A DNA stretch of 64,000 bases, taken from contig JAUTCQ010000017.1 of NCBI GenBank assembly GCA_030673845.1, positions 186,001 through 250,000 of the forward strand. The letters run 5' to 3'. The position numbers and the translations under genes are program-made. Positions 17,738-39,804 of the stretch are shown here, piece by piece (position 1 is the first letter of the stretch; each line of letters begins with the position of its first letter). The notes below the pieces were generated by a model that was given only the letters and a program-made list of their open reading frames with translations, searched no databases and was not told where the DNA came from. The stretch comes from Verrucomicrobiota bacterium JB022 (GTDB lineage Bacteria > Verrucomicrobiota > Verrucomicrobiia > Opitutales > Oceanipulchritudinaceae).

Positions 17738-19354
17738 TTACAGGGCCTTGCCGTCGGCGCGGGTGCCGCAGAGCACGACTTCGATGCCCAGCAGGCGGGC
17801 GAGCTCGGCCTTGGCCTGGAGGCAGGCGTCGGCGGCGGCCGCATCGGACGCGTAGGCGACGTTGAGGTGGTTGGCCTTGTGCTTGGCCATCATCTGGTCG
17901 CGATTCACGCCATAGAGCACGGCGTGCATGATCGGCCACTGGGGGGTGGTCTCGTTGAGGCGACGCTGGGTCTCGGCTTCGGGCAGGTTGATCGCCTTGG
18001 CGCGGCCGATGTCCATCTTGAGACGGTTTTCCTCGATGTAGACGCGGCTCCAGATGAGTTCGCCTTCCTTGGCGACGCCTTGCAGCGACGCACCGCCCTT
18101 GCGGAAGAACATCGGGGGCTGGCGGAAGCCGTGGCTGCCCGACCATCCACCTACGTGGTGCTCGACCGGGGCGGCGCCGCTGATCAGGAACACCCACACG
18201 TATTCGTCCGTCGTGCCCGACTGGTCCCAATCGCCCCAGCGCAGGTCGTGCAGGGTCGTTTCAGGGGCTTGGCCGAGCGCGCGGTGCACGCGGTTGGTCA
18301 GGATGGCGTCGAGGCCGGCGCACTCGTCCACTTCGTTGAAGTGGGGGTAGGGCAGGCCTTCCTTGATGATCTGGCCGGCGGCATTCTTGACCGGGGGGCG
18401 CTCCGTGCTGTTGAGCATACCTTCGACGAGGTCGGAAGCGGCGCAGAGGTCCTTCAGGCCCTGCTGATACTGGATGCCGATGGCTTCGCAGCCAAACTCG
18501 TCACCAATGCGGCAGGCGGCGATGTACATCTTGCACTGCTCGATCACCTGCTCGCGGGTCAGCTCGGTGGCCGGGTCTTCGCCGTAGTGGAAGTTGAAGC
18601 CGCGTTCTTCGATAAAGCGGTAGGCTTCCTCGGCCTCGGCGTCGGACACCTCCTGCATGGCGGCAAAGAGGGCGCTCTGGCTCAGGCGCTCCTTGTAGAC
18701 TCCCGTGCGGAAGAGCAGCTCGTCCGGGATGGCGGCGTTATACATGCCCATGCAAAACTCGTCGAAGACGCCCATGATGGACTTCTTGCGGTCGAGGTCC
18801 TGCGCGATGGCTTCGGCGACCTTCACCGTGTCGGCGTTGATGCCGTCGGCCTTGTAGGGGCGGGTGTGGCTGAGGTCGTGCTTTACCTTGCCCTTCTTCA
18901 GCCAGCGCTCGAGGTTTTCCTGGAAAGCCTTGTCGTTCTTGAAGTCCTCGCTCCACAGCGTGCAGTACTCGACGCCCGCCTTGGTCAGCGAGCCGTTGAG
19001 GTTGAGCATACCGACGAGGCCCGGCCAGGTGCCCGACCAGTTGGCCACCGTGAGGATCGGCCCGCGGTGGGAGATCAGGCCCGCCAGCACGTGGTGCGAA
19101 TACTGCCACACGGCTTCGGCCACGATCAGCGGCTGGTCGCGGTCGATGGAGGCAAACACGTCCATACCCTCGCGCTGGCTGGCGATAAAGCCATGCTTCT
19201 CTGCCGCCTTGTAGGGGTGGGCGCGGCGGATGGTGTAGCCCAGGGAGGCCACTACGTCCGACAGTTGTTGCTCCATGGCCGCCTGTTCAGGCCAGCACTG
19301 TTGGTTGGCCGAAAGGCGAAGGTCGCCGCTGGCCACGAGAAGAACTTCTTTCAT
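17738..19354 (-). CDS. L-fucose isomerase-fold sugar isomerase
   Basis: The 538-residue protein is related to the L-fucose/L-arabinose isomerase superfamily. The N-terminal Rossmann-like half includes [17 protein letters not shown] and [16 protein letters not shown]. The middle carries the cofactor/metal-site region [30 protein letters not shown]. The C-terminal half aligns by eye with E. coli FucI around [14 protein letters not shown] and the ending [13 protein letters not shown]. It would interconvert an aldose and a ketose with a divalent metal. It follows fucP by 57 bases and is the last gene of the operon, which fits L-fucose or a related deoxy sugar. Exact substrate is open, because a second isomerase of this fold lies at the head of the operon. 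Confidence 0.75.
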
Positions 19355-20850: not shown

Positions 20851-23628
20851 CTAGCGCTGCGGCTGGTGGTGGCGGAGTTCCACCGGCCCCATCATGCCAT
20901 AGGGCTGTGCGGAGTTATTGCCAAACACTTCCTTGTGCGCCTCGCGAAGTTGGTTGTTCAGCGTGGTGCTGACTTCCACCTGCAGGGTGTTTTCGCCCGG
21001 CTGGAGGTGCTCGGTCACGTCGACCACCGGGTGCAGCGGGTTGAGCGTGGGCAGCGTCTGGCCATTGAGCGTCACCTGTGCGGTGTCGAAGACTTCGCCC
21101 AGGCTCAGCGTCACCGTGCCACGGTCGAGCCACTCGGCGGGCACCTCGACTTCGGTCGTGTAGCGGCCCAGGCCCGAGGTAAACTCATGACCGGGCAGCT
21201 CCGTCCACGGCTGCAGCGTATCGAGCGCCACCTCGTGCTCGGTCTTCTTCGTTTCGGTGGCCTTATCGCCCGGCGTCCAGGCCTCGATCGTCAGCTGCCA
21301 GTCGCCGAGGGTCAGTGTGTCGGCCACGGGGCCGAGCGGCTGGTGCTCCTTGGCTTGGGGGAAGGTGCCCTTGGGGGCGAAGGCCAGGATGCGCGAATCG
21401 CCCGGGGAGAGCGACACGGGGATCACGTAGCGGTCGCCTTCGCGTTGGGCCTGCGGCAGCAGGAAGATCTCGCCCGTCCACGGGTCGAACTCGAAGGCCT
21501 GGGCACCCTTGGCGCTCGGGCGGATCGAGACAGGCACCTCGCCGGTGGCGTCCTTGCCTGCGTTGGAGAAGTAGAAGTAGTCGATCTTGCCGTCGCGGCG
21601 GTGCGCGTGCACGAGCGAAGCGTTCGGGTGCTTGACCGGGCGGTCGAGGTCCAGCTTGGCCACCGCTTCGCCAATCGACTCACGGTCGGGCACGTTGATC
21701 ACGTTGGGCAGCTTGAGCAGCTTGTCGAAGATCTTCTTCAGCTCGGCCTCTTCGCCCTTTTGCGGCAGGCCGGAGGTGGAGGGTTGCGACCAGTCGCCGA
21801 CCACGATCATGGGCAGCTTGCCCTTGCGTGCGTAGTCGTAGAGCTTCTCCGCCGTCTGCACCGGCATGGTGATGCTCTTGCCGCGGAAGGCGTTGCCCTC
21901 GAAGGCGAGCAGCTGGTAATTCGCGCCGTCGGGTGCGAGGCGGCCGTTCTTGGCCTTCGCCAGCGGCAGCTCCAGCAGCGAGGGGGCGACAAAGGAGTGC
22001 GTCCAGCCGGTGGCGTCGCCCTCGGTGGTGAACCACGGGGCGCCAAAGCCCGAGCCGGCATAGCCTTCCTGACGCAGGAACGCCACGTCGACCTGCGGCT
22101 TGCCCTGCTGCAGCACCCATTGCACGCGCGCAAAGTAGTCGGCAATGTCGGGCACGTGTTGCCAGCTCGGCTGACGCGGCCCCCAGGCCTCGGCGTAACC
22201 AGGGCCGGTTCCATAGGGCGAAAAGGCCGCGAAGCCCGGCCACTTCACGTCCGGCACTTCGGCATACGCGTAGCCGTGGAAGAAGGTCTGGTTGACCCCC
22301 GCCGCGAAGATCGGGTTGAGGGTCGTCAATACCCGCTGCCAGGTGGTGCTGTAGGCTCCGCCGGCATAGGCCGCCGCTTCGTTGGACATCACGGTATGGC
22401 CGCCCATGTCGCGCCCGCCCGCCAACGAGCGGTAGTCGTCGAGGTTCTTGAAGCCGAGCGACTCGCCTTCGACGATGTCGAGGTGTGCGGCGGAGAGCAT
22501 GGCGTCGGTCGGCATGCCATAGGGCTGCGTGCGCAGGCCGAGGCCCAGCTCCGCCGCCCAAGCCTGCAGGGCGTGCTGGTGGTGCTCCATGTAGAGTTGC
22601 CACAGGACATCCCAGAAATCGTGCACCACTTGGCTTCCGTTGTAGCCCTCATAGGTGATGATGTTCTTCTCGTGCTCCTGCACCACCAGCGGCAGGTAGG
22701 GCATCAGGTCGTAGCCCTTGCGCTTCTGGAACTCCTGGGCAAAGCCGGGGGTCCAGATGGTGGAGTCGGTCTCCATTTCGAGGGAGTCTTCGAACAGGTT
22801 GCCGCCCGCGTCCTTGATCAGCTCGCGCAGGTGCGGGTTGAGGATGTTCTGCTCCCAAAAATCGGTTACGGCGCGTGTGCCGGCCTCGCTGAAGTGGTCG
22901 ACCACGTAAGACTCGGGCTCGGTATGCGGCCCACGCTCCGGCTGTTGAGCCGAGCCGCGTAGCCAGTAGGCCAATACGACCCATTCGCCGTCGGAGGGCG
23001 GCGTCCAGTGGATCACACCGTCGCGCACCTTGTCGGTCACATCGACGAGCGAATCCTGCTGCAGCACCCACTTGCCCTTTTCCGCCGGGTCGCCGGAGAC
23101 GACGCGTGCGGCCTGCACAAAGCGCAGCTCCTGGCGGTTTACGCCGCGCTCTGCATGCACGCGAGGCTGCGGCACTTCCATGGGGAAGCTGCCTTGCCCA
23201 AAGCCTACCGCCAGCTCCTTCATGGCTGCCGGGTGGTCGGGGTCGACGGTGGGCACGGCGGCGGGCCAAGACGGCCCGATCGTCAGGTCGAGCTCCATGC
23301 CATGCTCGCGCGCCGTCTCGAAGGCTACGGTAACAGCGTCGACCCAAGGCTGCGTGCCCCAACCGTGGGTGTCGGGGGCGAGTTCGCGATCGCGCACGCT
23401 GTGGTGCACGTCGGCGATTTCGGCCCCGCCAAAGCCAGCGGCAGCCATGTCGCGCACTTCACGGGCGATTTCGGCGTTGTCCACCAGCCCATGCGGCCAC
23501 CACCAGCGGAACTTGGCCTGATATTCACGGCCCGGTTGGGCAAATTCTTCAGCACGGTCAGCTTGGGCCACGACCGGCAAAACAACCGGCAGCAGGGCCA
23601 AAAGGGTCAGGTTTCGGAGGGGATTCAT
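20851..23628 (-). CDS. Exported GH106-like alpha-L-rhamnosidase
   Basis: The 925-residue protein has a signal peptide (LTLLALLPVVLPVVAQA) and resembles GH106. Early it has KFRWWWPHGLVDNAEIAREV followed by AAGFGGAEIADV, the typical opening. Later comes DHFSEAGTRAVTDFWE, the acidic cluster GNLFEDSLEMETDSTIWTPG, a catalytic-region stretch EGESLGFKNLDDYR, and a C-terminal beta-sandwich domain (GLGRYTTEVEVPAEWLDRG). GH106 enzymes are calcium-dependent alpha-L-rhamnosidases acting on rhamnogalacturonan side chains. It is probably periplasmic. It lies between a BASS transporter (12 bases) and fucP (38 bases) in the operon. Confidence 0.83.
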   Translation of the reverse strand: MNPLRNLTLLALLPVVLPVVAQADRAEEFAQPGREYQAKFRWWWPHGLVDNAEIAREVRDMAAAGFGGAEIADVHHSVRDRELAPDTHGWGTQPWVDAVTVAFETAREHGMELDLTIGPSWPAAVPTVDPDHPAAMKELAVGFGQGSFPMEVPQPRVHAERGVNRQELRFVQAARVVSGDPAEKGKWVLQQDSLVDVTDKVRDGVIHWTPPSDGEWVVLAYWLRGSAQQPERGPHTEPESYVVDHFSEAGTRAVTDFWEQNILNPHLRELIKDAGGNLFEDSLEMETDSTIWTPGFAQEFQKRKGYDLMPYLPLVVQEHEKNIITYEGYNGSQVVHDFWDVLWQLYMEHHQHALQAWAAELGLGLRTQPYGMPTDAMLSAAHLDIVEGESLGFKNLDDYRSLAGGRDMGGHTVMSNEAAAYAGGAYSTTWQRVLTTLNPIFAAGVNQTFFHGYAYAEVPDVKWPGFAAFSPYGTGPGYAEAWGPRQPSWQHVPDIADYFARVQWVLQQGKPQVDVAFLRQEGYAGSGFGAPWFTTEGDATGWTHSFVAPSLLELPLAKAKNGRLAPDGANYQLLAFEGNAFRGKSITMPVQTAEKLYDYARKGKLPMIVVGDWSQPSTSGLPQKGEEAELKKIFDKLLKLPNVINVPDRESIGEAVAKLDLDRPVKHPNASLVHAHRRDGKIDYFYFSNAGKDATGEVPVSIRPSAKGAQAFEFDPWTGEIFLLPQAQREGDRYVIPVSLSPGDSRILAFAPKGTFPQAKEHQPLGPVADTLTLGDWQLTIEAWTPGDKATETKKTEHEVALDTLQPWTELPGHEFTSGLGRYTTEVEVPAEWLDRGTVTLSLGEVFDTAQVTLNGQTLPTLNPLHPVVDVTEHLQPGENTLQVEVSTTLNNQLREAHKEVFGNNSAQPYGMMGPVELRHHQPQR

Positions 23629-23640
23629 GGGAGGGGGATG

Positions 23641-24924
23641 TTATTCGGAAGAGGGTTTGTCCACCGGGTGCTTTTGCCAGTAGTTGGCCAGGATGGAGCC
23701 GGAGATGTTCATCCACGGGCTGAAAACGGCCGAGGCCAGGCCCAAAGTGCCCAGCATGCCCATCGAGCCCGCGATACCGGAAGCCATTCCACCATTCTGC
23801 AGGCCCACTTCCAGTGAAACAGTACGAGCGGAATTGCGGTCGAGGCCCAGCAGGCGGCTCATCCAGTAGCCGAGGATATACCCCGCAGCGTTGTGGATCA
23901 CGGCGGCGGCGAAGAGCAAAAGGCCCACGCGCAGCAGGTCGTCGCGCCCGGCGGCAGTGGTGACGGTAGTAAAATAGACGATACCGACCATCGAGAGCAG
24001 CGGCATCAGGCGCTCGATCTGCGGCAGGCCGCGCACCAGTAGGTGATACACCAGGCCGATCACGATCGCACCCGCCACAAAGCCCACGATCCCGATGAAC
24101 GGCAGCAGCGACTCCGGCGCATGGGCCGTCCAGAAGCCCCAGGCACCCAGAGCCAACGATCCAAGCCAAGCCAAGCTGAGCAAGGCGAGGAAGCCGACCA
24201 CCTTCCAGCCTGTCGCGGAGGCCGTCTTGAGGTAGTCGTGCAGCATGGCCGAGCCGATGGGCACCACCACGATCTTGATGATCTGCAGCATCATGCCCAG
24301 GAAGACCACCTCCACCATCGTCCCCGCCAGCAGCTTCATCATGAAGGGCGTGGCGAGCGGGGCGGCGAGGGTGGCGACGGCCGTCACGGTGACCGACAGT
24401 GCGAGATTGGCCCGGGCGATGTAAGCCATCACGTTGGAAGCCAAGCCGCTGGAGCACGCGCCGATCAGGATGATCCCAGCGGCAATCTCGGGCTCGAAGC
24501 CGAACGCCCTGGCAATAAAGTAGCCGCTGAACGGCATGATCGTGAACTGGCAGACCATCCCGATCAACACCCCGCGCGGCGAGCGCACGACATCGCTGAA
24601 GTCGCGCAGGCTCATCTGCGTGCCCATCCCAAACATCACCGCCTGCACCACAAAGAGGATCAACCACTTGTTGCGCAGGTCGAAATCGCCCACGTAGAGC
24701 AGCTCCTGCGGGTAGAGCAGGCCCGCTACGACGGCGGTGAGGATCCAGGCGGTATATTGGTAGCCCCCGAGGGCGGGGATCGCTCCCAGCCCAGGCGCAA
24801 AGAGGACGCAAGCGATCAGCGCCGCTGGCTGCCACAGCCCCGCATTGCCCAGGGCGAGGCCCACAAGGAATACGATGAGGGCGACAGCACTGCCGGCGAG
24901 GAGGGCTTGGCGGAATTTCTGCAT
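23641..24924 (-). CDS. BASS-family (bile acid:Na+ symporter-like) transporter
   Basis: The 427-residue membrane protein has about 10-12 hydrophobic segments and the family hallmark GACSSGLASNVMAYIARANL, followed by ALSVTVTAVATLAAPLATPF. BASS proteins import organic anions with sodium; several bacterial members carry keto acids. The gene sits between an Asp/Glu-racemase-fold protein (58 bases) and the GH106 gene (12 bases). Its neighbours RuBisCO-like protein and DUF1537 kinase act on sugar acids, so uptake of a sugar acid or lactone is a reasonable guess. The C-terminal 15 residues (YWQKHPVDKPSSE) are cytosolic and charged. Confidence 0.85.
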   Translation of the reverse strand: MQKFRQALLAGSAVALIVFLVGLALGNAGLWQPAALIACVLFAPGLGAIPALGGYQYTAWILTAVVAGLLYPQELLYVGDFDLRNKWLILFVVQAVMFGMGTQMSLRDFSDVVRSPRGVLIGMVCQFTIMPFSGYFIARAFGFEPEIAAGIILIGACSSGLASNVMAYIARANLALSVTVTAVATLAAPLATPFMMKLLAGTMVEVVFLGMMLQIIKIVVVPIGSAMLHDYLKTASATGWKVVGFLALLSLAWLGSLALGAWGFWTAHAPESLLPFIGIVGFVAGAIVIGLVYHLLVRGLPQIERLMPLLSMVGIVYFTTVTTAAGRDDLLRVGLLLFAAAVIHNAAGYILGYWMSRLLGLDRNSARTVSLEVGLQNGGMASGIAGSMGMLGTLGLASAVFSPWMNISGSILANYWQKHPVDKPSSE

Positions 24925-24982: not shown

Positions 24983-25642
24983 CTAACCTAAGATCGTAGC
25001 CAGGTGCTGCATGGCCAAAGGCGGGCTGGCCAGGATCGGCACCTTGCGCTCGCTTTCCGAGAGCGTGCCGACCACGCGGGCCATGGAAGCCTGTGCCAGC
25101 ACGATCACGTCGACCTGCTCCATCAGCTCGCGCAGGGCGGCGGCCACCTTGGCGTCGTGCGTGGCAGAGTCGCCGCTCATCAAGGCCTCAAAGGCACCTT
25201 CGCACAGGCGGGCGGTCAGCTCGATCTGCTTGCCGGCGACGGCTGCGCGGCGCTCCACCAGGTCGGCCGTCGGGTCGAGTGTGGTGGGCAAGGTGGCGAT
25301 CACGCCGATCTTCTTGCCGGTGCGCACCGCTTCGTCGGCCATCGGCTGGTCCACGCGCAAAACGGGCACCGAGGTCAGCGCGGCAGCCGCCTCGACGGCA
25401 CGCCCGATGGACGAGCAGGTGACGAGGATCTGGTCCGCACCCGCATTGGCGGCGGAGGCCACATGGTCGACCACGCGGCGGGCCGTCTCGGGCGTCAGCT
25501 TGCCCTTGCGGATCACGTCCTTGATCAGGCTGTCGTCGGAAAGGTGAAACGTCTCGACGCCGGGGAGGTGCGTCTTGGCGAGGTCCTGGAAGATGGGGAC
25601 CAAAGTGGCGGAGGTGTGGAGGAATCCGAGGGTCTTGGGCAT
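24983..25642 (-). CDS. Asp/Glu-racemase-fold protein lacking the second catalytic Cys
   Basis: The 219-residue protein has the two-domain Asp/Glu racemase fold. It has an early LGFLHTSATLVP and the first active-site motif VTCSSIG with C76. The second catalytic Cys of this superfamily is expected after the strand DVIVLA, but the sequence there is LAQASMAR. A one-Cys enzyme is unlikely to be a normal two-base racemase; decarboxylase or isomerase relatives with one Cys are known in the fold. The ATG at 25642 is preferred over 25675 because it avoids overlapping the kinase gene and starts at the first beta strand. Neighbours suggest a role in sugar-acid metabolism. Confidence 0.8.
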   Translation of the reverse strand: MPKTLGFLHTSATLVPIFQDLAKTHLPGVETFHLSDDSLIKDVIRKGKLTPETARRVVDHVASAANAGADQILVTCSSIGRAVEAAAALTSVPVLRVDQPMADEAVRTGKKIGVIATLPTTLDPTADLVERRAAVAGKQIELTARLCEGAFEALMSGDSATHDAKVAAALRELMEQVDVIVLAQASMARVVGTLSESERKVPILASPPLAMQHLATILG

Positions 25643-25661
25643 GGTGAGAGGCTTTTTCGGT

Positions 25662-27020
25662 TCAGAGGTGACCACGTTGCGCGGCCAGGAAATAGTCGGG
25701 AGCGCCGACCTGGCCGCCTTTGAAATTCAGTTGCACGCCGTCGAGGGTGGAGCTGGGGGCGCGGGCGCGGCAGAGCGGAGCGCCGCTGGCAAAAGGCGCG
25801 TGCATCTCCACCGCCTGGATTCCCATCGCGCGGCCCGCATAGCTCGACGAGTCGCCGCCGGCAATGATCACGCGTTCGAGGTTGACGGCACCAGCCGACT
25901 GGCGGGCCACTTGCCCCAACGCGGTGCCCAGCACCTTGGCGGTATCGACGCCGGAGGGCACGCGCACCTTCAGCCGGGGGTCATCGGGGCCCGAGCAGGT
26001 GTGCACGACCACAGATTGGCCGGCGCGGAGGGCCTTGACGGTGCGCTCCAGCGGCTCGCCGAGGTGCGTCACTTGCCCGGCCAGCAGCGAGGCGGTATCG
26101 AGGGCCACTTCGGCAAACCCGGCCTCGCGGGCGGCGGCGATCTGCGCGGCTGTCACCGGCGATGCGCTGCCCGAGATCACCAGCAGGGGCTCGACCGCTT
26201 CGGCGGGCGTCCACGCGGCAGGGGGCGTCAATTCGCCGGTTGATTGCCAGTGCAAGCCCAGCGCGCGCCCGAGGCCCGACGAGCCGGCGCAAAACAGCGG
26301 CTGCTCGGGAGTGCCGTAGGGTGCGAGCAAGTGGCCGATCGTCTCCAGGTGGCGCTCTTCCAGCGCGTCGAAGAAAATGATGCGGTGGCCCGTCTTTACC
26401 AGCTCCGCGAGGGCCGCACGGGCCTCCTCCAGCGGGCGGCTGAGCTGCGTCACGTCGATCAGGCCGATCTTGAGGTCGGTCTGGCGGGCCAGGTGGCGGC
26501 GCAAGTCGCTCTCGTCGGCAGGCGTCACCGGGTGGCGACTCATCGACGGGTGGCGGTCGAGGCGGTGGACTTCGCCCGTCTTGCCCGTGCCCAGGCGCGC
26601 AAAGAGGTTGCCAAACGCGCAATAGCGGCCCAGCGCGGGCGCGCCCACCACGACCGGCACAAAGGGCGAGTCGAAGATCTCCAGCCCGATCCCGATCGCA
26701 TGGCCGATGCTGCCCACCTTGGGCGACGAATCGAAGGTGGAGCAGACCTTGTAATGGACGAAGGGCGCGCGCAGGTTTTTCAGGCGCTTGAAGGCGGGCC
26801 GCAGCGTGTCTTCCATCGAGGAAGGCGTCATCGAGCGGCTATGCCCGGCGATGCCGACCGCCTGGGCCTGCGCATGGCGGGCCAGCGTGGCGGCGTCGGG
26901 CACGTCGAGCAGCAGGATGGTGTGCGCACCCGCCAGCGACAACGATTCGAGGGCATCGGTCGAGCCGGTGAAGTCGTCGCCGTAAAAAGCCAGTTTCAAC
27001 TGCGTCGCGCGGTCGGGCAT
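25662..27020 (-). CDS. Four-carbon/branched acid-sugar kinase (DUF1537, OtnK/OiaK family)
   Basis: The 452-residue protein has the diagnostic N-terminal substrate motif YGDDFTGSTDALES (about residues 13-26) and GIAGHSRSM. The C-terminal nucleotide-binding domain ends with IIAGGDSSSYAGRAMGIQAV. DUF1537 members phosphorylate threonate, 3-oxotetronate or, in D-apiose catabolism, 3-oxo-isoapionate (OiaK). The start ATG overlaps the stop of the RuBisCO-like gene by one base. This tight pairing with an RLP is the arrangement known for OiaK-OiaX, so 3-oxo-isoapionate kinase is the leading hypothesis. Tetronate kinases remain an alternative. Confidence 0.85.
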   Translation of the reverse strand: MPDRATQLKLAFYGDDFTGSTDALESLSLAGAHTILLLDVPDAATLARHAQAQAVGIAGHSRSMTPSSMEDTLRPAFKRLKNLRAPFVHYKVCSTFDSSPKVGSIGHAIGIGLEIFDSPFVPVVVGAPALGRYCAFGNLFARLGTGKTGEVHRLDRHPSMSRHPVTPADESDLRRHLARQTDLKIGLIDVTQLSRPLEEARAALAELVKTGHRIIFFDALEERHLETIGHLLAPYGTPEQPLFCAGSSGLGRALGLHWQSTGELTPPAAWTPAEAVEPLLVISGSASPVTAAQIAAAREAGFAEVALDTASLLAGQVTHLGEPLERTVKALRAGQSVVVHTCSGPDDPRLKVRVPSGVDTAKVLGTALGQVARQSAGAVNLERVIIAGGDSSSYAGRAMGIQAVEMHAPFASGAPLCRARAPSSTLDGVQLNFKGGQVGAPDYFLAAQRGHL

Positions 27021-28261
27021 CAGAGAGGGCCGAATTTATCCCACGAGGGCTGCAAATCGGGATAGGTGGCGAGGGCCTGCTGGGCCGTGAGGCCTTCGAC
27101 CGCCGCCTGCCACCAGCGTTGCAGCGAACGCACGCCAGCGGCGGGGCCATCCGGGTGGGCCATGATGCCACCCCCGGCCTGGTAGAGCAGGTCGGTCGTC
27201 TGTGTGCGGCGGTAGGTCTCGGGGGCTTGCGCGCCCCATTGGCCGGAGGAGACGACGGGCAGCGGGTTTTTGCCGCCGAGGAAGGGCGCGGCGCAAGCCT
27301 CCATCGAGGCCACCACCGAGTCGTCGTCTTCCCAGAACTTGTTCGCAATGCCGTTGACGTGTAGCTGGTCCACCCCGGCGAGGCGCCACAGCTTTACCAT
27401 CGCGGTGTAGTCCATGCCGATCATCGGGTGACGGGTCATCATGCCCCAGCCATTGCGGTGGCCGTGGATGGCCAGCTCGCCCCGGTCGCAAATCTTCTTG
27501 CTGGCCACCATGCCTGCGCTCACGAGGCTGATCATCGCTGCGGTGCCGCCAGCCGCCACGATGGTATCGTAGTGGCGCTGCATCGCGTCCAGCTCGTCGG
27601 TGAGGTTGAAGGCATACATTACCTTCTTGCCCGTGCGGTCGGCGTGGCGGTTGATCACGTCCATCACCGCCTTCACGCGGGCGTCAAACGGCGAGTGCGG
27701 CGGGTTGGCCATCAGCTCGTCGTCCTTGATGAAGTCGATCCCCGCCTCCACCAGCACGCGTACAATCTCGGCCGTCTGCTCTGGCGAAAGGCCGACGCTG
27801 GGCTTGATGATCGTGCCGATCAGCGGACGGCCTTCGACCCCCGTCAGCTTGCGGCAGCCCTCGACCCCGAATTTGGGGCCGGAGAAGTGCTGGGCGAAGC
27901 TCGCGGGCAGCTCGATGTCTTGCAGGCGCAGGCCGGTAAACTGGCGGATCTCGTACAGGTTGCCCTGGATGGTCGAGATCAGCGTCGGCAGGTTGTAGCC
28001 CACATTTTCCAGCGCCCACGAGATGGTGACGCGGGCGCGGCGGTAGGCCCCGCTCTTCTTGCCGCCCGGCAGGCTGGGGGAGCCGCTCGCGCCGAGGTCT
28101 TCGATCGCCTCCACGCGGGCGGCAAAGCGTTCGCGCAGCTCATCGGTCTCGCCCGGGACGGCCACGAAGGTGCCGCACGATTGTTCGCCCGCGAGCACGG
28201 CGGCCGCGTCGGCGACCGCCACCGGGGTTTCGATCAGGTAAGTAGCGCGAATACGTTCCAT
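27020..28261 (-). CDS. RuBisCO-like protein (form IV), possible 3-oxo-isoapionate-4-phosphate-cleaving enzyme
   Basis: The 413-residue protein is a RuBisCO large-subunit homologue. It keeps the active-site Lys in GTIIKPS (K153) and the carbamylation/metal triad in FIKDDE (K179, D181, E182). It also keeps HGHRNGWGM, LHVNGIANKFW and the phosphate-binding GGGIMAHPDG. The true RuBisCO loop 6 region is altered (VSSGQWGAQ), so it is an RLP and not a carbon-fixing enzyme. RLPs next to DUF1537 kinases are known to be 3-oxo-isoapionate-4-phosphate decarboxylases or transcarboxylase/hydrolases of D-apiose catabolism. The ATG at 28261 was chosen because the upstream frame is Pro-rich noise that would overlap the rhamnosidase gene. 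It is translationally coupled with the kinase. Confidence 0.87.
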   Translation of the reverse strand: MERIRATYLIETPVAVADAAAVLAGEQSCGTFVAVPGETDELRERFAARVEAIEDLGASGSPSLPGGKKSGAYRRARVTISWALENVGYNLPTLISTIQGNLYEIRQFTGLRLQDIELPASFAQHFSGPKFGVEGCRKLTGVEGRPLIGTIIKPSVGLSPEQTAEIVRVLVEAGIDFIKDDELMANPPHSPFDARVKAVMDVINRHADRTGKKVMYAFNLTDELDAMQRHYDTIVAAGGTAAMISLVSAGMVASKKICDRGELAIHGHRNGWGMMTRHPMIGMDYTAMVKLWRLAGVDQLHVNGIANKFWEDDDSVVASMEACAAPFLGGKNPLPVVSSGQWGAQAPETYRRTQTTDLLYQAGGGIMAHPDGPAAGVRSLQRWWQAAVEGLTAQQALATYPDLQPSWDKFGPL

Positions 28262-28262
28262 G

Positions 28263-30977
28263 CTAGGCGCTGGGCAGGGTGGAGGTGATGCGGTAGGTGC
28301 CGGCGGGCAGGGTGGTGACAAAGCGACCGTCGGCGGCCAGGCCTTGCGCTTCCTGGCCGTCGATACGCGGCGTCACACCCTCTGCGGCGGGGATGGAGAC
28401 CTCCGCCTCGGTGTTGGCCGGGATGGTGATTTCCCAGTTAAAGCTGGTGCCTTCCTGCTTCCACGAGCTGGCGACCTCGCCGTGCATCGTGCGGTAGCTG
28501 GCCTTGGCATAGTCGAGGCCCTTGCCGGGGAACGGGCGCAGGCGGAAGTGCTGGAAGCCCGGCTTTGTCGGGTCGACTTCGATGCCCGCCACGTAGCGGT
28601 AGAGCCACTCGCCGATGGAACCGAGCGAGTAGTGGTTGAACGAATTCATCAGCGGGTCGAAGAAGCCGCCTTCTTCCGTCCAGCCGTTCCAGCGCTCCCA
28701 GATCGTGGTGGCGCCGTGCTTCACCGGGTAGAGCCACGACGGGTAGGTGTCTTGCAGCAGCAGGCGGTAGGCGACGTCGTTGTGGCCCGTCTCGGAAAGG
28801 ATCGGGTTGAGGAAGCGGATGCCGACAAAGCCCGTGCTGAGGTGCCAGTCGAGCTTACGGATGTTTTCCACGAGGTGGTCGGCGGCGGCCTTGCGCAGCT
28901 CCTGCGGGATCAGCTCGAAGTCGAGCGCGAGGAGGTAAGCCGTCTGGGTGTCGACCGTCAGGCTGCCGTCGGGGCGCAGGAATTCCTTTTGGAAGGCGGC
29001 GCGCACGCGCTCGTACATCTGCTGGAAGCGCTCGGCATCGTCCTGCTTGCCGAGGGCCTGCGCCATGTGCGCCATCTTCTTGGCGTCGTCGGCCCAGAAG
29101 GCCGTGGCGAGCAGGTTTTTCATCGGCGAGTGGGTGCGGAACTCGCGGTCCGACGGGATGCAGAGCCAGTCGCCGTAATTGTTGCGCAGCTCGTTGAGGC
29201 GCAGGTATTCCGGGTTGGTGCGCTCGAGGTAGGAAAGCCATGCGACCATCGCGCCCCACATGCGGTCGATCAGGCGGAAGTCGCCGTAGACCTGCCACAT
29301 GGTGTAGGGGATGATGACGCCCGCGTCGGCCCAGGCGGCACCGCCCACGAGGTCGTCGAGGCCGATAAAGTTGTCGTCTTCACGCAGGCGCGGCGCGGTG
29401 TCGGGGAAGATGCCGTCCTCGGTCTGCGCGTCGGTCACGTCGGTCAGCCACTTTGTGAAGAAGGCGGCGACATCGGCGTTATAGGCGGCCGTGCGGCAGA
29501 AAATCTGGGCGTCGCCCATCCAGCCGAGGCGCTCGTCGCGCTGCGGGCAGTCGGTGGGCACGCTGAGGAAGTTGTCCTTTTGCGACCACACGCCGTTGAG
29601 CCACAGGCGGTTGACGTCGGGGTTCGAGCACTCGAAGTGCCCGGTGGCCGGGGTGGCGCTCTGGATCATGCGGCCGGTCGCGGCGCCCTCGGGCGGCGCT
29701 TCATCAAGCCCGCTGATCTCGAAATACTGGAAGCCGTGGAAAGTGAAGTGCGGGCGGAAGTCCACCTCGCCATTGGTGCCGACCACGATCTCGTCTTCGG
29801 AGGTGGCGCGGCGGAGGTTCTCGGTGTAGAGCTCGCCTGCGGGCGTGAGGCGCTCGGCGTGGCGGATCTTGATGCGCGTGCCGGGCTTGGCCTTGGTCTT
29901 GAGGTAGACCCAGCCGGCGATGTTTTGCCCGAGGTCGTAGATGTAGACGTTGGGGCGAATCTCGGTGCGGCTGATCGGCTGCAGGATCTGCGTCTCCTGC
30001 ACCGGCTCGGCGCGCTGGGCCACGAGGGGCACGGTGGGCGCTTCGACCGGGAGGGAGGGCAGCCACTTGCTTTCGTCGAAGCCCGGGCCGTTCCAGTTCT
30101 TCTGCTTGCGCATGCCGTCGTAGATCTCGCCCAGCATGAAGTCGGATCGGCGGATCGCGCCGGTGTCGCAGCGCCAGTCGGGGCCGGTGCCGTAGACGAC
30201 GGTTTCGCCGTTTTCCAGCTCCAGTTCCAGTTGCACCAGCAGGCTGTTGACGAGCGAGCCGTAGCGCGCACGCGTCTCCTGCCAGCCCACGTAGCCGCTC
30301 CACCAGCCGTCGCCCAGGATGATGCCGATGGCGTTGCCGCCGTCGCGCAGCATGTCCGTCACGTCAAAGGTGCGGTACTGGATGCGGTGGTCGTAGTCGG
30401 TCCACTCGGGCACGAGGTAATCGCGGCCGATGTTCTCGCCGTTGAGGAAGAGCTCGATCACGCCGCGTGCGGTCGCGTAGACGGTGGCCCGCTTGACGCG
30501 GGTGGTGACGTCGAAGCCCTTGCGGAAATAGGTAGGCGTACCCGGCTCCGTCAGCGTCGGCTCGACGGCTTCCGGGTCGCGCTTGAGGATCTCCGGGTCG
30601 TAGGAGATCCATTGGGCCGACCAGTCGCTGGGCTCAAGCAGGCCCATCGACCAGCGGCCGATTTCCGAACTGACGACCGCGCCCGCATCGTCCCACACCG
30701 TCACCTGCCAGCAGACTTCCTGACGCGAGGCGAGGGGCTGGCCGGCGTAGGCGACATGGGTGGTGCGGCGGCTCTCCACCCGCCCGCTGTCCCAGAGCAG
30801 CTCGCGGTCGCCCGCGAGGGCTTCGGGGGAGGTGGCTACCTGGATGCGGTAGGCCTGTTGACGCGCGCCGCGGCGGGTGGACTGAAGGGCCCAGCTGAGG
30901 CGGGGCGCCTTTTCGTCGATCCCCAGCGGGTTCGTCAGGTATTCGCAGCGGAGGTGGGTGACCGTCAGTTCGGGCAT
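28263..30977 (-). CDS. Cytoplasmic GH78 alpha-L-rhamnosidase
   Basis: The 904-residue protein has the GH78 plan. Two N-terminal beta-sandwich domains (LTVTHLRCEYLTNPLGID ..., LFLNGENIGRDYLVPEWTDY) precede the (alpha/alpha)6 catalytic domain. The latter has the signature DCPQRDERLGWMGDAQIF, which holds the general-acid Glu, and the second catalytic region HGATTIWERWNGW. A C-terminal beta domain ends in PRIDGQEAQGL. No signal peptide is present, so it should hydrolyse imported oligosaccharides or glycosides in the cytoplasm with inversion, releasing L-rhamnose. One base separates its stop from the RLP start codon. It lies 27 bases after the small membrane protein gene. Confidence 0.92.
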   Translation of the reverse strand: MPELTVTHLRCEYLTNPLGIDEKAPRLSWALQSTRRGARQQAYRIQVATSPEALAGDRELLWDSGRVESRRTTHVAYAGQPLASRQEVCWQVTVWDDAGAVVSSEIGRWSMGLLEPSDWSAQWISYDPEILKRDPEAVEPTLTEPGTPTYFRKGFDVTTRVKRATVYATARGVIELFLNGENIGRDYLVPEWTDYDHRIQYRTFDVTDMLRDGGNAIGIILGDGWWSGYVGWQETRARYGSLVNSLLVQLELELENGETVVYGTGPDWRCDTGAIRRSDFMLGEIYDGMRKQKNWNGPGFDESKWLPSLPVEAPTVPLVAQRAEPVQETQILQPISRTEIRPNVYIYDLGQNIAGWVYLKTKAKPGTRIKIRHAERLTPAGELYTENLRRATSEDEIVVGTNGEVDFRPHFTFHGFQYFEISGLDEAPPEGAATGRMIQSATPATGHFECSNPDVNRLWLNGVWSQKDNFLSVPTDCPQRDERLGWMGDAQIFCRTAAYNADVAAFFTKWLTDVTDAQTEDGIFPDTAPRLREDDNFIGLDDLVGGAAWADAGVIIPYTMWQVYGDFRLIDRMWGAMVAWLSYLERTNPEYLRLNELRNNYGDWLCIPSDREFRTHSPMKNLLATAFWADDAKKMAHMAQALGKQDDAERFQQMYERVRAAFQKEFLRPDGSLTVDTQTAYLLALDFELIPQELRKAAADHLVENIRKLDWHLSTGFVGIRFLNPILSETGHNDVAYRLLLQDTYPSWLYPVKHGATTIWERWNGWTEEGGFFDPLMNSFNHYSLGSIGEWLYRYVAGIEVDPTKPGFQHFRLRPFPGKGLDYAKASYRTMHGEVASSWKQEGTSFNWEITIPANTEAEVSIPAAEGVTPRIDGQEAQGLAADGRFVTTLPAGTYRITSTLPSA

Positions 30978-31218: not shown

Positions 31219-32703
31219 TTAGGCCTGGGCGGTTTGGGTGAGGTGGGCGGGGGCGTTCTTCTGCTGGATCGTCGAGCAGACCACATACAGGATCATGGCG
31301 GCGATCCAGGCGGGCAGGGCAAGGAACATCAGCTCCACGTGCAAGTCGGCAATGAAGCCGGGCACGATGTCGTTGATCCACTTGAGGAAGGCCACGTTGT
31401 CCTTGGCCCAGAGCAGCCAGAGGGGCAGGAAGCTGCCGATCCAGGCGACAAAGGTGGGCCAGCTGAAGCCGATGTTGGCCAGCTCGGCGAAGTTGCGCTT
31501 CAGCCCGATCTTGGGCAGCACCCAGTAATCCATCAACACACAGGCGCCGAAGGGCAGGAAGAAGAGGCCGTAGGAGGCCACCACGAGGTCGAGGCTCTTG
31601 AGCAGGGCCGGGATACAGGCCAGCACGATCATCACGCCACCGGCGAGGAAGGTCACCTGCCAGCGTTGCCAGTTGGGCGTCGCCACCTGGATGGCCAGGC
31701 CGGCGCGGTAGAGCGTGGGGTTGGCGGTCGTCCAGCCGGCGATCACCACCAGGATGGCACCAGCGAGGCCCGCGCCGAGGAAGCCGATCTCACCAGGGGG
31801 GAAGCTCGTGGCACCTTCGTTGATCTTGACATAGGCCGCGCAGAGCAGGGCGGAGGAGATCCAGGCCATGAAGTGGCCGATATACATCCCGAAGGCGGAG
31901 GCGAAGCCACTCGTCCACTTCTTGGCGTAGCGGAAGATGGTGATATCGCTCATGCCCAAGTGTTGGGCGGCATTGCACAGCCAGGCAAAGCCCGCCACGT
32001 GCCAGAAGGTATACTTCGAGAAGCCCTCGAAGGGCACGCCCGTGAAGATCTTCTCGTCGAAGACCGTCCAGAGGTCGCCCAGGCCGGTTACGCCCAGCTG
32101 GGGCAGCACTGCGATGCCGCAAGCGGCGAAAACGAGCGCCATCCAGGGCGCGCAGATCTTGGAAAAGTGCGCCAGCTTCTCGAAGCCGAGCACCGCGAGC
32201 ACTGCGATGACGGCCCCGACGAAGACGGCCAGGGTAATCCAGCTCGGGCTGGCCAGCCACGCGCTCGACTCCGGATTATGAATCGCGGGGAAGAGCAGGG
32301 AGACCGCCGAGGTCGATACCTGCACCATCGCTCCCGCCAACAAGCACAGCACCACCGCATACAGGGCGCTGTAGATCACCATGAGGTAGGGGCCTGCAAT
32401 CTTCTTCAACTGCCAGTAGATCGTCAGGCGCGTCTTCACCGCAATGGGGGCGCAGATCAGCGCCCAGCTCAAGACGGCGAGCAGGTTGCCCACGATCAAA
32501 CCAAGGAAGAAGTCCTTGGCCGTGACACCATGAGCCAGCATCAACGGCCCGAGGACCAGCTCGGTGCCGGCCACGTGCTCACCCGCGAACATCGCGATGA
32601 ACGTCTTGTGGCCGTGCAGCTTGTTTTCCTTGATCGGCTCGCGATCATACTCATAGAGCGCGTCGAGGCGATCGACGAGCGAGGAGGATTCGGGTTGGCT
32701 CAT
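31219..32703 (-). CDS. NCS1-family (purine/cytosine permease-like) transporter
   Basis: The 494-residue protein has about 12 membrane segments and NCS1 features. TM1 is FIAMFAGEHVAGTELVLGPL, followed by an early conserved 'LGNLLAVLSWALICAP'-type segment. The later elements GWTTANPTLYRAGLAIQ and DYWVLPK also match; the first is the NCS1 'T/N-x-N/A-x-Y' region. NCS1 members carry nucleobases, hydantoins and vitamins with Na+ or H+. Its place inside a glycan-degradation operon, between GH127 and GH78 genes, suggests that members of this subgroup carry a sugar or sugar acid. That is inference. Confidence 0.8.
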   Translation of the reverse strand: MSQPESSSLVDRLDALYEYDREPIKENKLHGHKTFIAMFAGEHVAGTELVLGPLMLAHGVTAKDFFLGLIVGNLLAVLSWALICAPIAVKTRLTIYWQLKKIAGPYLMVIYSALYAVVLCLLAGAMVQVSTSAVSLLFPAIHNPESSAWLASPSWITLAVFVGAVIAVLAVLGFEKLAHFSKICAPWMALVFAACGIAVLPQLGVTGLGDLWTVFDEKIFTGVPFEGFSKYTFWHVAGFAWLCNAAQHLGMSDITIFRYAKKWTSGFASAFGMYIGHFMAWISSALLCAAYVKINEGATSFPPGEIGFLGAGLAGAILVVIAGWTTANPTLYRAGLAIQVATPNWQRWQVTFLAGGVMIVLACIPALLKSLDLVVASYGLFFLPFGACVLMDYWVLPKIGLKRNFAELANIGFSWPTFVAWIGSFLPLWLLWAKDNVAFLKWINDIVPGFIADLHVELMFLALPAWIAAMILYVVCSTIQQKNAPAHLTQTAQA

Positions 32704-32751: not shown

Positions 32752-34803
32752 CTAGCGGCGGGGGATCCAGACGGTCATCTCGGTGTCGCCGCGATTATCC
32801 CAGGCGTAGTAGGGAATCAGCGTGAGGTTGAACGTCTTGGGCTTCGCCGTCGAGACTGGACGATAGAGCGTTTGCAGATCCCATTCTTCGTCCGGCAGCT
32901 GCAGGGCGGGAATGGTGATGGTTTTGACCGTGGTGTTGACGATGTGCATCTCGCCAAACTTGGCCTTGGATGTCGCCTTCGGGTCGACCGCGATACGGTC
33001 GATGTCCACGCCCTCGGGCAAGTCGTTGGACTCCACGCAGTAGACGAGCGGGCCGTATTGCACGGCCACCTGGTTGCGGGAATCTTCGACGTGCGGGTGG
33101 GCTTCGTAGAGCGTCACTTCAAAACCGATGTCGAGCAGCACCTCGTCGCCGGCTTGGAACTCGCGCTCCAGATCGTAGTAGGTACCAGGCTCGAGGTCGG
33201 CCTTCACGGCCTTGCCGTTGACGAGCAGGCGGTTGGTCTTGGCCTTCGACCACTCGGGGATACGCAGCTTCAGCGTCGTTTCCTTGGCCGGGGCCTCTTC
33301 GATCACCAGCTTCACCGCGCCGGCCCACGGATAATCCGTTTCCTGGCGCAGCTTGATGCGGTCGCCGTTCTTCCACTCGGTATCGAGGGTGTTGGCGCCG
33401 TAGAGGTGGACCCACAGGGTGTCGTCGGAGAGGCCGTAGAAGTAGTTATGCGTCTCGGCGATGGTGCGCAACACGTTGGGCGGGCAGCAGAAGCTCGACT
33501 TGATGTTGGGCGTGCGTTCGCGCGACCAGCGCATGTCGACCGGGAAGTCCTGGCTCTTGCGCAGCGCGTTGACGTAGAAGAAATGGGTGCCTTCGAGGCT
33601 GATGCCCGGCATCACGCCATTGTAGAGCGTGCGCTCGTAGAGATCGGCGTAAGAGGCGTCGCCCGTAAGGGTGAGCATGCGCCAGTTCCACAGGTTGTAG
33701 CCGATGGTGGCGCAGGTCTCGTTGTAGGCGGTGGTGTTGGGCAGCTCGTAGTTCATGCCGTACGCCTGGTGGACGAGCTTGATCTGCGAGTGCTGGGAAG
33801 AGCCGTTGGGGGAGGCGCCGTCGTAGAGCGCACCCGTCATGCCGGTAATGTAGAGCTTCTGGTTGGCTACATTGTCGGCGATGAGGTCGAGCGGCTGCAT
33901 CAGAGTGTCGTCGCCATTCTCGGCCACCACGTCGGCGACGCCCGCGTAGAGGTAGTTGGCGCGCACGGCGTGGCCCACGGCCTCCGTCTGCTCGCGGAAG
34001 GGCTGGGCATCCTGATTGTGATCGCTGCCCACGTCCTCGGGCACGAGGTTGCGGATGTCGATCATCTTCTCGCCCAGGCGCAGGTAGCGCTCCTCACCCG
34101 TCACGCGGTAGAGCTCCATCACGCCCATGTAGTGCGAGGGGCAGATGGCGTTGAGGGCCAGCTCTTCGGGCACGTTGTCGGCGAGGCCTTCGATGTAGTC
34201 GGCCGCCTTGATGCCCAGATCGAGCATCGTGCGCTTGCCGGTAGCGCGGTAGTGGATGATGCCCGCAGTGATCAAGTGACCCATGTTGTAGGTCTCGAAG
34301 TGCTCGCGGTCCTCGAATTCATGAGCTCCGGCGACGCCCTGGCGCTGCGGGATGATCACCTTCGTGTGCAGGTAGCCGTCTTCACGCTGGGCCTTGCCGA
34401 CTACTTCGATGATCTCGTCCATCAGCTTGTCCAGCTCCGGGTCCTTCGTCACCGCGTAGACCTGAGCGACGGATTCGAACCACTTGAGGAAGTCGCCGTC
34501 GTTGAAGGGGGGGCCGTGGAAGTGGCCGTCGCGACCATTGCCGAGACCGGCGGCGAGGAGATAGTTGGACCAGGCGTGGCTTTCGTAGTCGTCCTGGAAG
34601 AGATCCCACATGTAGGGGATCATCGAATCTTGGAGCACTTCAAAGCGCTCCCCCCAGAAGCCTCCGTTCCAATGCACATCGTCGATGTCGACCATGTATT
34701 GGGTGGTGTGCGGGGAATTGGAGGTATCTACCAAAGGTCCGCCGGCGGCCGAAACGAGGCTGCCGACACTGCAAAGGGCTAAGAGGGAGAACGCTTTATA
34801 CAT
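32752..34803 (-). CDS. Exported GH127-family (DUF1680) glycoside hydrolase
   Basis: The 683-residue protein has a signal peptide (AFSLLALCSVGSLVSAAG) and an (alpha/alpha)6 barrel with beta domains. The zinc/cysteine site of GH127 is intact: NETCA supplies E362 and C364, and SSFCCPP supplies C439 and C440, one of which is the nucleophile. GH127 enzymes are mainly beta-L-arabinofuranosidases; one member of the Bacteroides RG-II system removes aceric acid. The signal peptide places it in the periplasm or outside. It is 6 bases from the FGGY kinase gene and 48 bases before the NCS1 transporter gene. Confidence 0.9.
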   Translation of the reverse strand: MYKAFSLLALCSVGSLVSAAGGPLVDTSNSPHTTQYMVDIDDVHWNGGFWGERFEVLQDSMIPYMWDLFQDDYESHAWSNYLLAAGLGNGRDGHFHGPPFNDGDFLKWFESVAQVYAVTKDPELDKLMDEIIEVVGKAQREDGYLHTKVIIPQRQGVAGAHEFEDREHFETYNMGHLITAGIIHYRATGKRTMLDLGIKAADYIEGLADNVPEELALNAICPSHYMGVMELYRVTGEERYLRLGEKMIDIRNLVPEDVGSDHNQDAQPFREQTEAVGHAVRANYLYAGVADVVAENGDDTLMQPLDLIADNVANQKLYITGMTGALYDGASPNGSSQHSQIKLVHQAYGMNYELPNTTAYNETCATIGYNLWNWRMLTLTGDASYADLYERTLYNGVMPGISLEGTHFFYVNALRKSQDFPVDMRWSRERTPNIKSSFCCPPNVLRTIAETHNYFYGLSDDTLWVHLYGANTLDTEWKNGDRIKLRQETDYPWAGAVKLVIEEAPAKETTLKLRIPEWSKAKTNRLLVNGKAVKADLEPGTYYDLEREFQAGDEVLLDIGFEVTLYEAHPHVEDSRNQVAVQYGPLVYCVESNDLPEGVDIDRIAVDPKATSKAKFGEMHIVNTTVKTITIPALQLPDEEWDLQTLYRPVSTAKPKTFNLTLIPYYAWDNRGDTEMTVWIPRR

Positions 34804-34809
34804 GATTAT

Positions 34810-36300
34810 TTAGGAGGAAGAAGGGGAGTTGAGAAGTTGCTGTACGGCGGCTTGCCAGCCGAGGTAGGCCTCGGAAGTGGCACTGCCATTGTTGACGGGT
34901 TCATAACGGATATCGTAGCGCGGGGAGGCGGCGATCGCGTCCAGGGAGTCGAATTCGCCTTGGCCCAGCATGCCGGCGAGCACGGCCCCGAGGGGCGAGC
35001 ACTCCGACACGGTGTTGATGCTCAGTTCGACGCCGACGAGGTCGGCCACAAATTGCATGAGGAAGCGATTCGCAGTCGGGCCGCCATCCCCGTAGAGCTG
35101 GGCGACCTGGATGTCGTCGTTGCACATGGCATCGAGCGCATCCCGGATCTGGTAGGCAATGGATTCGAGGCCCGCCCGGGCCAGGTGGCGGCGGTCGCTC
35201 TGGCTGGTGAGGCCGACGATCGCTGCCTTGGCGGCGGGAGCCCAGTGCGGCAAACCGAGACCGGAGAACGCGGGGACCAGGTAAACCCCGCCATTGTCTT
35301 CCAGTTGCGTCGCCATTTCTTCGCACTCGGCGATATCGTGGATCAGCCCCAACTGGTCCTTCAGCCACACCAGCGTGGAAGCGGAGCTGATGATGATGCC
35401 TTCGAAGGCGTAGGTAGGCACGCCGTTGTGCACCCAGGCGAGCGTGGTGACGACGCCCTTGGGGGCCGGGACGATCTCGTGGCCGATGTTGAGCAGGATG
35501 GAAGAGCCCGTGCCGAAGGTGACCTTGGCACCGCCGGGCTCGTAGCAACGCTGAGCAAAAAGGGAGGCCTGCGAGTCGCCCATTACACCCACGATCGGGA
35601 TCGGCTGCTCCAGCGCGCCGCCGAGGGTCGTTTCGCCAAAATGGGCCGTGCACTCGCGCACTTCCGGCAGCGACTGGCGGGGCACACCGAAGAGGCCGCA
35701 CAGCTCGTCGTCCCACTGGCGGGTGGAGATGTCGAAAAGCAGGGTGCGGGAGGCGTTGGTGTGGTCGGTCGCGAAGACCTCGCCGCCCGTCAGGCGGTGG
35801 ACGAGGTAGGCGTCGATCGTGCTGGCGCAGGCCTGACCCGATTCGAGCGCGGCGCCGATCTGCGGCTCGTTTTCGACCAGCCACTGCAGCTTGGAGGCCG
35901 AGAAGTAGGCGTCGACGAGCAGGCCCGTCTTGCGCTGGATGGTTTCCTCATGGCCTGCCGCGCGGTGTGCCTTGCAGATGTCGACGCTGCGGCGGCACTG
36001 CCACACGATGGCGCGGCGCAGAGGCTTGCCCGATGCCCGGTCGAACACGACCGTCGTCTCGCGCTGGTTGCAGATGCTGAGGCTGCGGATCTCCTTGCGG
36101 TGTTCGCGGTGGCGCTCCAGCAGCGTCTTGAGCACGATCAGCGTATTCTGCCAGATCTCCTCGGCATCGTGCTCCACCCAGCCGGGCCGGGGGAAGTGCT
36201 GCGTGTGCTCGCGCGAAACTTTATCTACGACGCGGCCCTCCCGGTCAAACAGGAGGGCTTTCGTCGCCGAGGTACTCTGATCGAGGGCGAGGAATAACAT
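34810..36300 (-). CDS. FGGY carbohydrate kinase, glycerol-kinase-like
   Basis: The 496-residue protein has the two-domain ASKHA fold. It has LALDQSTSATKALLFD (phosphate 1), CNQRETTVVFDRASGKP, VGVMGDSQASLFAQRC with the catalytic Asp of FGGY kinases, FGTGSSILLNIG and the adenine-side YGDGGPTANRFLMQFVAD. Sequence style is closest to glycerol kinase. Its partners are a split transketolase and a sugar isomerase, which is not a glycerol context. D-apulose kinase, an FGGY member acting just before a split transketolase, and other ketopentose or erythrulose kinases are therefore alternatives. The ATG at 36300 follows the transketolase gene by 67 bases. Confidence 0.85.
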   Translation of the reverse strand: MLFLALDQSTSATKALLFDREGRVVDKVSREHTQHFPRPGWVEHDAEEIWQNTLIVLKTLLERHREHRKEIRSLSICNQRETTVVFDRASGKPLRRAIVWQCRRSVDICKAHRAAGHEETIQRKTGLLVDAYFSASKLQWLVENEPQIGAALESGQACASTIDAYLVHRLTGGEVFATDHTNASRTLLFDISTRQWDDELCGLFGVPRQSLPEVRECTAHFGETTLGGALEQPIPIVGVMGDSQASLFAQRCYEPGGAKVTFGTGSSILLNIGHEIVPAPKGVVTTLAWVHNGVPTYAFEGIIISSASTLVWLKDQLGLIHDIAECEEMATQLEDNGGVYLVPAFSGLGLPHWAPAAKAAIVGLTSQSDRRHLARAGLESIAYQIRDALDAMCNDDIQVAQLYGDGGPTANRFLMQFVADLVGVELSINTVSECSPLGAVLAGMLGQGEFDSLDAIAASPRYDIRYEPVNNGSATSEAYLGWQAAVQQLLNSPSSS

Positions 36301-36367
36301 CGGGGCTTCAGAAAAAGGGGACGCTCCCTGCGGGGAACAGGGAGCGGTGGGGAAAATATAAACAAAC

Positions 36368-38217: not shown

Positions 38218-38224
38218 GGTCTCT

Positions 38225-39646: not shown

Positions 39647-39804
39647 GAAAAAAGCAGTGAAGTTTAATGAAATGGCAGGATAGGCTGGATTTTCAATAGA
39701 ATTCATCCAGCTTGGAACTCACGGGTATCATAGAATAAGCATCGCGCTTGTTCCACCCGAATATTCGTTGATTCTCCCCGGATACTAAGGTCTGATCGCC
39801 ACGC
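39647..39804. promoter_or_regulatory. Divergent promoter region of the operon and its AraC regulator
   Basis: This 158-base AT-richer gap separates the leftward 15-gene operon from the rightward AraC gene. It holds a perfect 10-base palindrome, CGAATATTCG (39758-39767), central enough to be a regulator site. I cannot assign -35/-10 elements with confidence. Confidence 0.5.

Follow-up and report, generated by a model that had tools for sequence, protein, structure and literature searches.

Which substrate is handled by a RuBisCO-like protein (RLP) whose gene is tied to that of a DUF1537-type kinase? The question is raised by a 64,000-nucleotide stretch of the Verrucomicrobiota bacterium JB022 genome (hereafter the window), in which the RLP gene (27020..28261, minus strand, 413 aa; Pfam RuBisCO_large, E 1.4e-62) and the kinase gene (25662..27020, minus strand, 452 aa; Pfam SBD_N + NBD_C) overlap by one base, base 27020 being common to the RLP stop and the kinase start. 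A first-pass annotation, whose coordinates and overlap for the two open reading frames we confirmed, read the pair as a candidate oxidative apionate branch lying beside an apulose branch. It also placed both proteins in the right superfamily, as the best NCBIfam models are OiaX for the RLP (510 bits; equivalog NF042437) and OiaK for the kinase (438 bits; equivalog NF042436). Both scores are under the curated cut-offs of 700, so that by sequence the pair belongs inside the apionate-type superfamily and outside the curated OiaX and OiaK families. Two further assignments were tried and rejected: the RLP as a methionine-salvage enolase (128–166 bits, far under its OiaX score; 128 bits for MtnW, whose cut-off is 513.6) and the kinase as a 3-oxo-tetronate kinase (195 bits, far under its OiaK score).

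The two genes lie within a run of 14 minus-strand genes, from 39706 down to 17738, that looks like a pectin (rhamnogalacturonan-II, RG-II) utilisation cluster; a gene at 39805, AraC-type-looking by eye, points away from it. The run begins with an isomerase of the fucose-isomerase fold (38225..39706; C-terminal domain PF02952, weak SftI match), a split transketolase (36368..38217; N-terminal subunit 37366-38217, C-terminal subunit 36368-37369; Pfam) and an FGGY kinase (34810..36393, start probably near 36300; Pfam FGGY_N/C). These genes (34810-39706) are likely an apiose/apulose set, separate from the RLP and its kinase, although the isomerase is not of the xylose-isomerase-like type known for D-apiose. 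We also weighed whether the FucI-like, transketolase and FGGY genes might belong to the RLP route, and discarded the idea since they occur in only 6–8 RLP loci among the best 80 of 580. Next come a GH127 hydrolase (32752..34803), a membrane permease (31219..32703; NCS1 cytosine/purine-like by eye, no Pfam match at 1e-3, one relative, 57% identical, at locus L035) and a GH78 alpha-L-rhamnosidase (28263..30977; Pfam) that adjoins the RLP upstream. The kinase is followed by an Asp/Glu-racemase-like gene (24983..25675; PF01177, E 4.9e-24; homologues begin at ATG 25642), a BASS-family sodium symporter (23641..24924; PF01758, E 1.3e-30), a GH106-like gene (20851..23628; PF17132, E 5.7e-47), a FucP-like gene and a second FucI-like gene (17738..19354, 538 aa; weak fucose-isomerase C-terminal match, no NCBIfam match, one relative, 58% identical, at locus L006).

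To see which genes travel with the pair, related loci were collected by a contig scan and the best 80 of 580, a sample biased towards close relatives, were compared. Of these 80 loci, 74 have a kinase gene after the RLP gene, and the gap is below 60 bp in 52 of the 66 racemase-context loci measured; the coupling is therefore not due to chance. A racemase-like gene is present in 68/80 loci and a BASS transporter in 63/80, racemase-context loci nearly always having the latter. The gene set is thus larger than two genes: the RLP/kinase block also includes the racemase-like gene and that of the BASS transporter. By contrast, a gene of the ApnO family (PF16896) takes the place of the racemase-like gene in 6 of the 80 loci, accompanied in some by ApnL, a Gfo/Idh gene and ABC transporters; this is the known oxidative apiose set. 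None of the 80 loci combines the two contexts. At the genome level, PF16896 was found in 6/6 ApnO-context genomes versus 1/44 other RLP genomes (Fisher p 4e-7, a value that ignores shared ancestry); the genome of locus L057 carries the racemase context plus a PF16896 gene, the match to which is split in two (G035:C4:107515-107965). A likelihood tree places every one of the 52 racemase-context RLPs, that of the window among them, in a single clade (SH-aLRT 98), with annotated OiaX far outside it and the ApnO-context RLPs also apart.

Other arrangements were observed in the course of this comparison. A third context, with a VOC-family gene near the RLP and a TRAP transporter and without the racemase-like gene, occurs in Azospirillum, Sulfitobacter and Haloterrigena (L085:7444-10579; L087:7454-10503; L086:6551-10650); the VOC gene is directly upstream of the RLP in L085 and L087, with which the protein of PDB 3nwr groups. 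Rufibacter tibetensis (L082) has the four-gene block on a mobilizable plasmid (NZ_CP012644.1), where a pectinesterase gene comes after it. An acidobacterial locus (L071:4515-5447 and L071:9995-11284) has an RLP outside the main clade and without an adjacent kinase; its racemase-like gene (51%) lies on the opposite strand, some 5 kb from the RLP. In Sinorhizobium fredii (L083:6931-10238) aldo/keto reductase genes flank the annotated oiaX and a 3-keto-5-aminohexanoate cleavage gene is close by, possibly another pathway variant.

The whole-genome search for D-apionate oxidoisomerase and apionolactonase, also proposed in the first-pass annotation, matched neither. The JB022 genome, which is 97% complete, gave no match to PF16896, a model that matched 6/6 positive genomes, nor to the ApnL model NF049900, which recognises the protein of L084 and, weakly, that of L081. 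Since neither ApnO nor ApnL was found, the oxidative apionate route was rejected as the main reading; the missed OiaX and OiaK cut-offs and the separate RLP clade also speak against it. What survives of the original proposal is its chemistry, as phosphorylation of a branched beta-keto sugar acid followed by RLP action is plausible, whereas apionate as the source of that acid is unsupported. One might still suppose that an unrecognised oxidoreductase makes 3-oxo-isoapionate for the kinase and the RLP. This would agree with OiaX and OiaK being the best-matching models and with the occurrence of the same pair next to ApnO in other genomes, but no ApnO-family gene was found in 43/44 relatives or in JB022, no conserved oxidoreductase accompanies the RLP block in the gene neighbourhoods of the best 80 of 580 loci, and a racemase fold, having no nicotinamide site, cannot supply the oxidation. 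The window moreover holds the separate pentulose kinase/transketolase set described above. The distribution of apiose-releasing enzymes, to which we return below, bears on the same supposition.

A clue to the substrate came from the glycoside hydrolases around the RLP. RG-II-type enzymes near the RLP include BT1020-like (in a few racemase-context loci), GH106 and GH78 proteins, and the commonest extra gene is GH127, found in 34 of the best 80 of 580 loci; 31 racemase-context loci carry it, and in 21 of these it is the gene next upstream of the RLP. The window GH127, which by eye has an apparent signal peptide, scores 683 bits to PDB 5mqo (50% identity) and 387 to the next structure; we take 5mqo to be BT1003 of Bacteroides thetaiotaomicron. 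A tree nests 5mqo within the RLP-linked GH127 clade (support 0.987), apart from arabinofuranosidases. At the positions corresponding to HypBA1 142/194/322, the window protein, 5mqo and all 39 RLP-linked copies have the same F/C/Q residues, whereas the arabinofuranosidases and paralogues tested have H at 142 and H or N at 194; the Q of reference 7exu at 322 is taken to be an engineered change. HypBA1 H142 and H194 bind the sugar (PMC10850190), and BT1003 is an aceric acid hydrolase (PMC5698469, PMC10850190). The Gln found throughout the aceric-type clade at the acid/base position, HypBA1 322, is an observation of its own, and judging from the residue these enzymes may use another mechanism or substrate-assisted catalysis.

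Aceric acid, a rare sugar acid with a branched skeleton, is a hallmark of RG-II, which is the most complex of the pectins. Is its release correlated with the RLP across genomes? Among 289 Verrucomicrobiota genomes, the RLP (at least 69% identity) is present in 10, the racemase-like gene (at least 65%) in the same 10, and a strong GH127 (>900 bits) in 11, these 10 among them. Among 201 Sphingobacteriaceae genomes, the RLP is found in 25 and GH127 in 57; all 25 RLP genomes have GH127, and 32 of the 57 GH127-bearing genomes lack the RLP. The apiosidase family (PF13204) occurs in 80/201 Sphingobacteriaceae, including 25/25 RLP genomes, and part of the co-occurrence signal thus reflects general RG-II use. 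Within these 80 apiosidase-positive genomes, however, the RLP is present in 25/57 with GH127 and in 0/23 without it (Fisher p 3e-5, kinship ignored), showing that the RLP follows aceric acid release more closely than apiose release. Apiose is likewise an RG-II sugar, and the apiosidase-family genes of the 25 RLP genomes, together with the one in the genome of the window, would suit a supply of 3-oxo-isoapionate by a hidden oxidoreductase; the 0/23 count is at odds with it and, with the evidence from ApnO, ApnL and gene context, makes us regard that explanation as improbable. Slightly less probable still is that the module serves some other sugar acid, branched or keto, from RG-II or a related pectin, its tie to GH127 being one of general RG-II use. 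The many RG-II enzymes associated with the module, apiosidase among them, would fit such a substrate, as would the 13/25 Sphingobacteriaceae in which GH127 and the RLP are far apart or on different contigs; set against these are the better prediction of the RLP by GH127 than by apiosidase and the position of GH127 directly upstream in many loci. No branched carboxylated sugar of RG-II other than aceric acid is known to us.

From sequence, gene context and co-occurrence we infer, with somewhat more confidence than doubt, that the RLP, the DUF1537 kinase, the racemase-like protein and the BASS symporter constitute a module for the catabolism of L-aceric acid released from RG-II by GH127, a reading that extends to both its substrate and its reactions. 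The structures of the acids concerned are compatible with this. L-Aceric acid is 3-C-carboxy-5-deoxy-L-xylose, 3-oxo-isoapionate is HOCH2-CO-C(OH)(COOH)-CH2OH, and the ketose isomer of the former is the core of the latter plus one methyl group. Accordingly worded as a proposal, the exported GH127 would free aceric acid from RG-II and the BASS symporter would import it; the racemase-like protein, using one catalytic cysteine, would convert the aldose into the ketose HOCH2-CO-C(OH)(COOH)-CH(OH)-CH3; the kinase, whose predicted substrate is this ketose, would phosphorylate it at C1; and the RLP would transfer the carboxyl to the adjacent carbon and hydrolyse the C–C bond, yielding 3-phosphoglycerate and L-lactate. 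These are the products expected if the reaction reportedly carried out by OiaT is applied to the aceric-derived substrate, the L configuration at C4 giving L-lactate. No aldolase would then be needed. Nor would any oxidation, which would explain why no dehydrogenase accompanies the block and why a non-redox protein of the racemase fold stands in place of ApnO. This complete scheme, an undescribed pathway that combines an aldose-ketose isomerase of the racemase fold with an RLP-catalysed split, is more tentative than the module as such, and we hold it to be possible without calling it probable.

The least certain step is the isomerisation. The racemase-like protein (structure model pLDDT 96) matches Asp/Glu racemases in a fold search; a phmmer search against PDB sequences gave no match, whereas profile and fold searches did. 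Cys87 is kept and Gln195 occupies the site of the second catalytic Cys in 77/77 sequences, the Cys-to-Gln change being visible in an alignment with allantoin/hydantoin racemase. The pair of catalytic cysteines of a two-base Asp/Glu racemase is thus not present, and a single Cys with Gln195 fits one-base proton transfer better than two-base racemisation. We predict that the protein is the aldose-ketose isomerase of aceric acid; to our knowledge, no such isomerase is known in the Asp/Glu-racemase fold. The BASS symporter is predicted to import the free sugar acid, and an acid-type transporter in place of a sugar ABC system fits acid import.

The RLP could also act more simply. With aceric acid as the substrate, it might be a plain decarboxylase as OiaX is, giving a 5-deoxy-pentulose 1-phosphate from which a class II or rhamnulose-type aldolase encoded elsewhere would produce dihydroxyacetone phosphate (DHAP) and acetaldehyde. 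OiaX is its closest named model, and for an RLP acting on a beta-keto acid of this kind the simplest reaction is loss of CO2. Yet an inspection of conserved neighbours revealed no aldolase, and the active site points elsewhere. K153 and K179/D181/E182, as the first-pass annotation had seen, are kept, and they are invariant in 68 aligned RLPs, as are K308, T31, H268 and R269. The same annotation held RuBisCO loop 6 to be lost: the GKxxG motif of true RuBisCO is indeed gone (NKFWE), but its lysine remains as K308, which aligns with the loop-6 lysine of 2cwx. E26, N101 and H301 are invariant outside two annotated rhizobial OiaX, which have D, G and Q instead, so that the window RLP does not show the OiaX pattern. 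We match K153, K179, D181 and E182 to RuBisCO K175, K201, D203 and E204, T31, H268 and R269 to T65, H294 and R295, and E26, N101 and H301 to E60, N123 and H327. The retention of RuBisCO-type residues that are replaced in annotated OiaX speaks for an OiaT-like enzyme and against a plain decarboxylase of the OiaX type; decarboxylation followed by a remote aldolase therefore seems unlikely to us, if less so than the two explanations weighed above. Judging from these residues, the RLP (predicted structure pLDDT 86) is predicted to act on a phosphorylated 3-C-carboxy-5-deoxy-pentulose, as a transcarboxylase/hydrolase.

If L-aceric acid is the substrate, the cluster is not one in which two routes for the same branched pentose share an operon, as first proposed; its gene partners point to aceric acid, and the cluster is better read as serving two different branched sugars of RG-II. 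A literature search that covered few subscription papers returned the description of an aceric acid-releasing enzyme, and no cellular use or breakdown route was found in it. The four genes are a directly testable candidate for aceric acid use. If true, the proposal would give RuBisCO-like proteins a new substrate and possibly the Asp/Glu racemase fold a new reaction, and it provides a sequence signature for finding aceric acid users in Bacteroidota, Verrucomicrobiota and Planctomycetota. More generally, RLP + DUF1537 pairs should not be given the apionate label by default.

How does the module compare with known systems? The nearest is the oxidative D-apiose pathway, reportedly described by Carter et al. 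2018 (Nat Chem Biol; cited in PMC6302742) with OiaK and OiaX or OiaT. It shares with the window a homologous DUF1537 kinase and RLP, and for both the same chemistry is proposed, on a branched 2-hydroxy-3-oxo acid; in contrast, no ApnL or ApnO was found in the JB022 genome and the block in the window holds no ApdH candidate, having instead the racemase-like protein, the BASS transporter and an RLP of a separate clade. OiaX (NF042437), a 3-oxo-isoapionate-4-phosphate decarboxylase and the closest named family, has the carbamate lysine, K153 and K308 in common with the window RLP and differs, in the two annotated rhizobial proteins examined, at E26, N101 and H301. The window GH127 belongs to the same subclade as BT1003 (5mqo) and carries the same F/C/Q sugar-site signature, but is 50% identical to it and is encoded among genes proposed to break down the released acid inside the cell. 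With the Asp/Glu/hydantoin racemase superfamily (PF01177), finally, the racemase-like protein shares the fold and the first catalytic cysteine, whereas Gln replaces the second and the proposed activity is that of an isomerase rather than a racemase.
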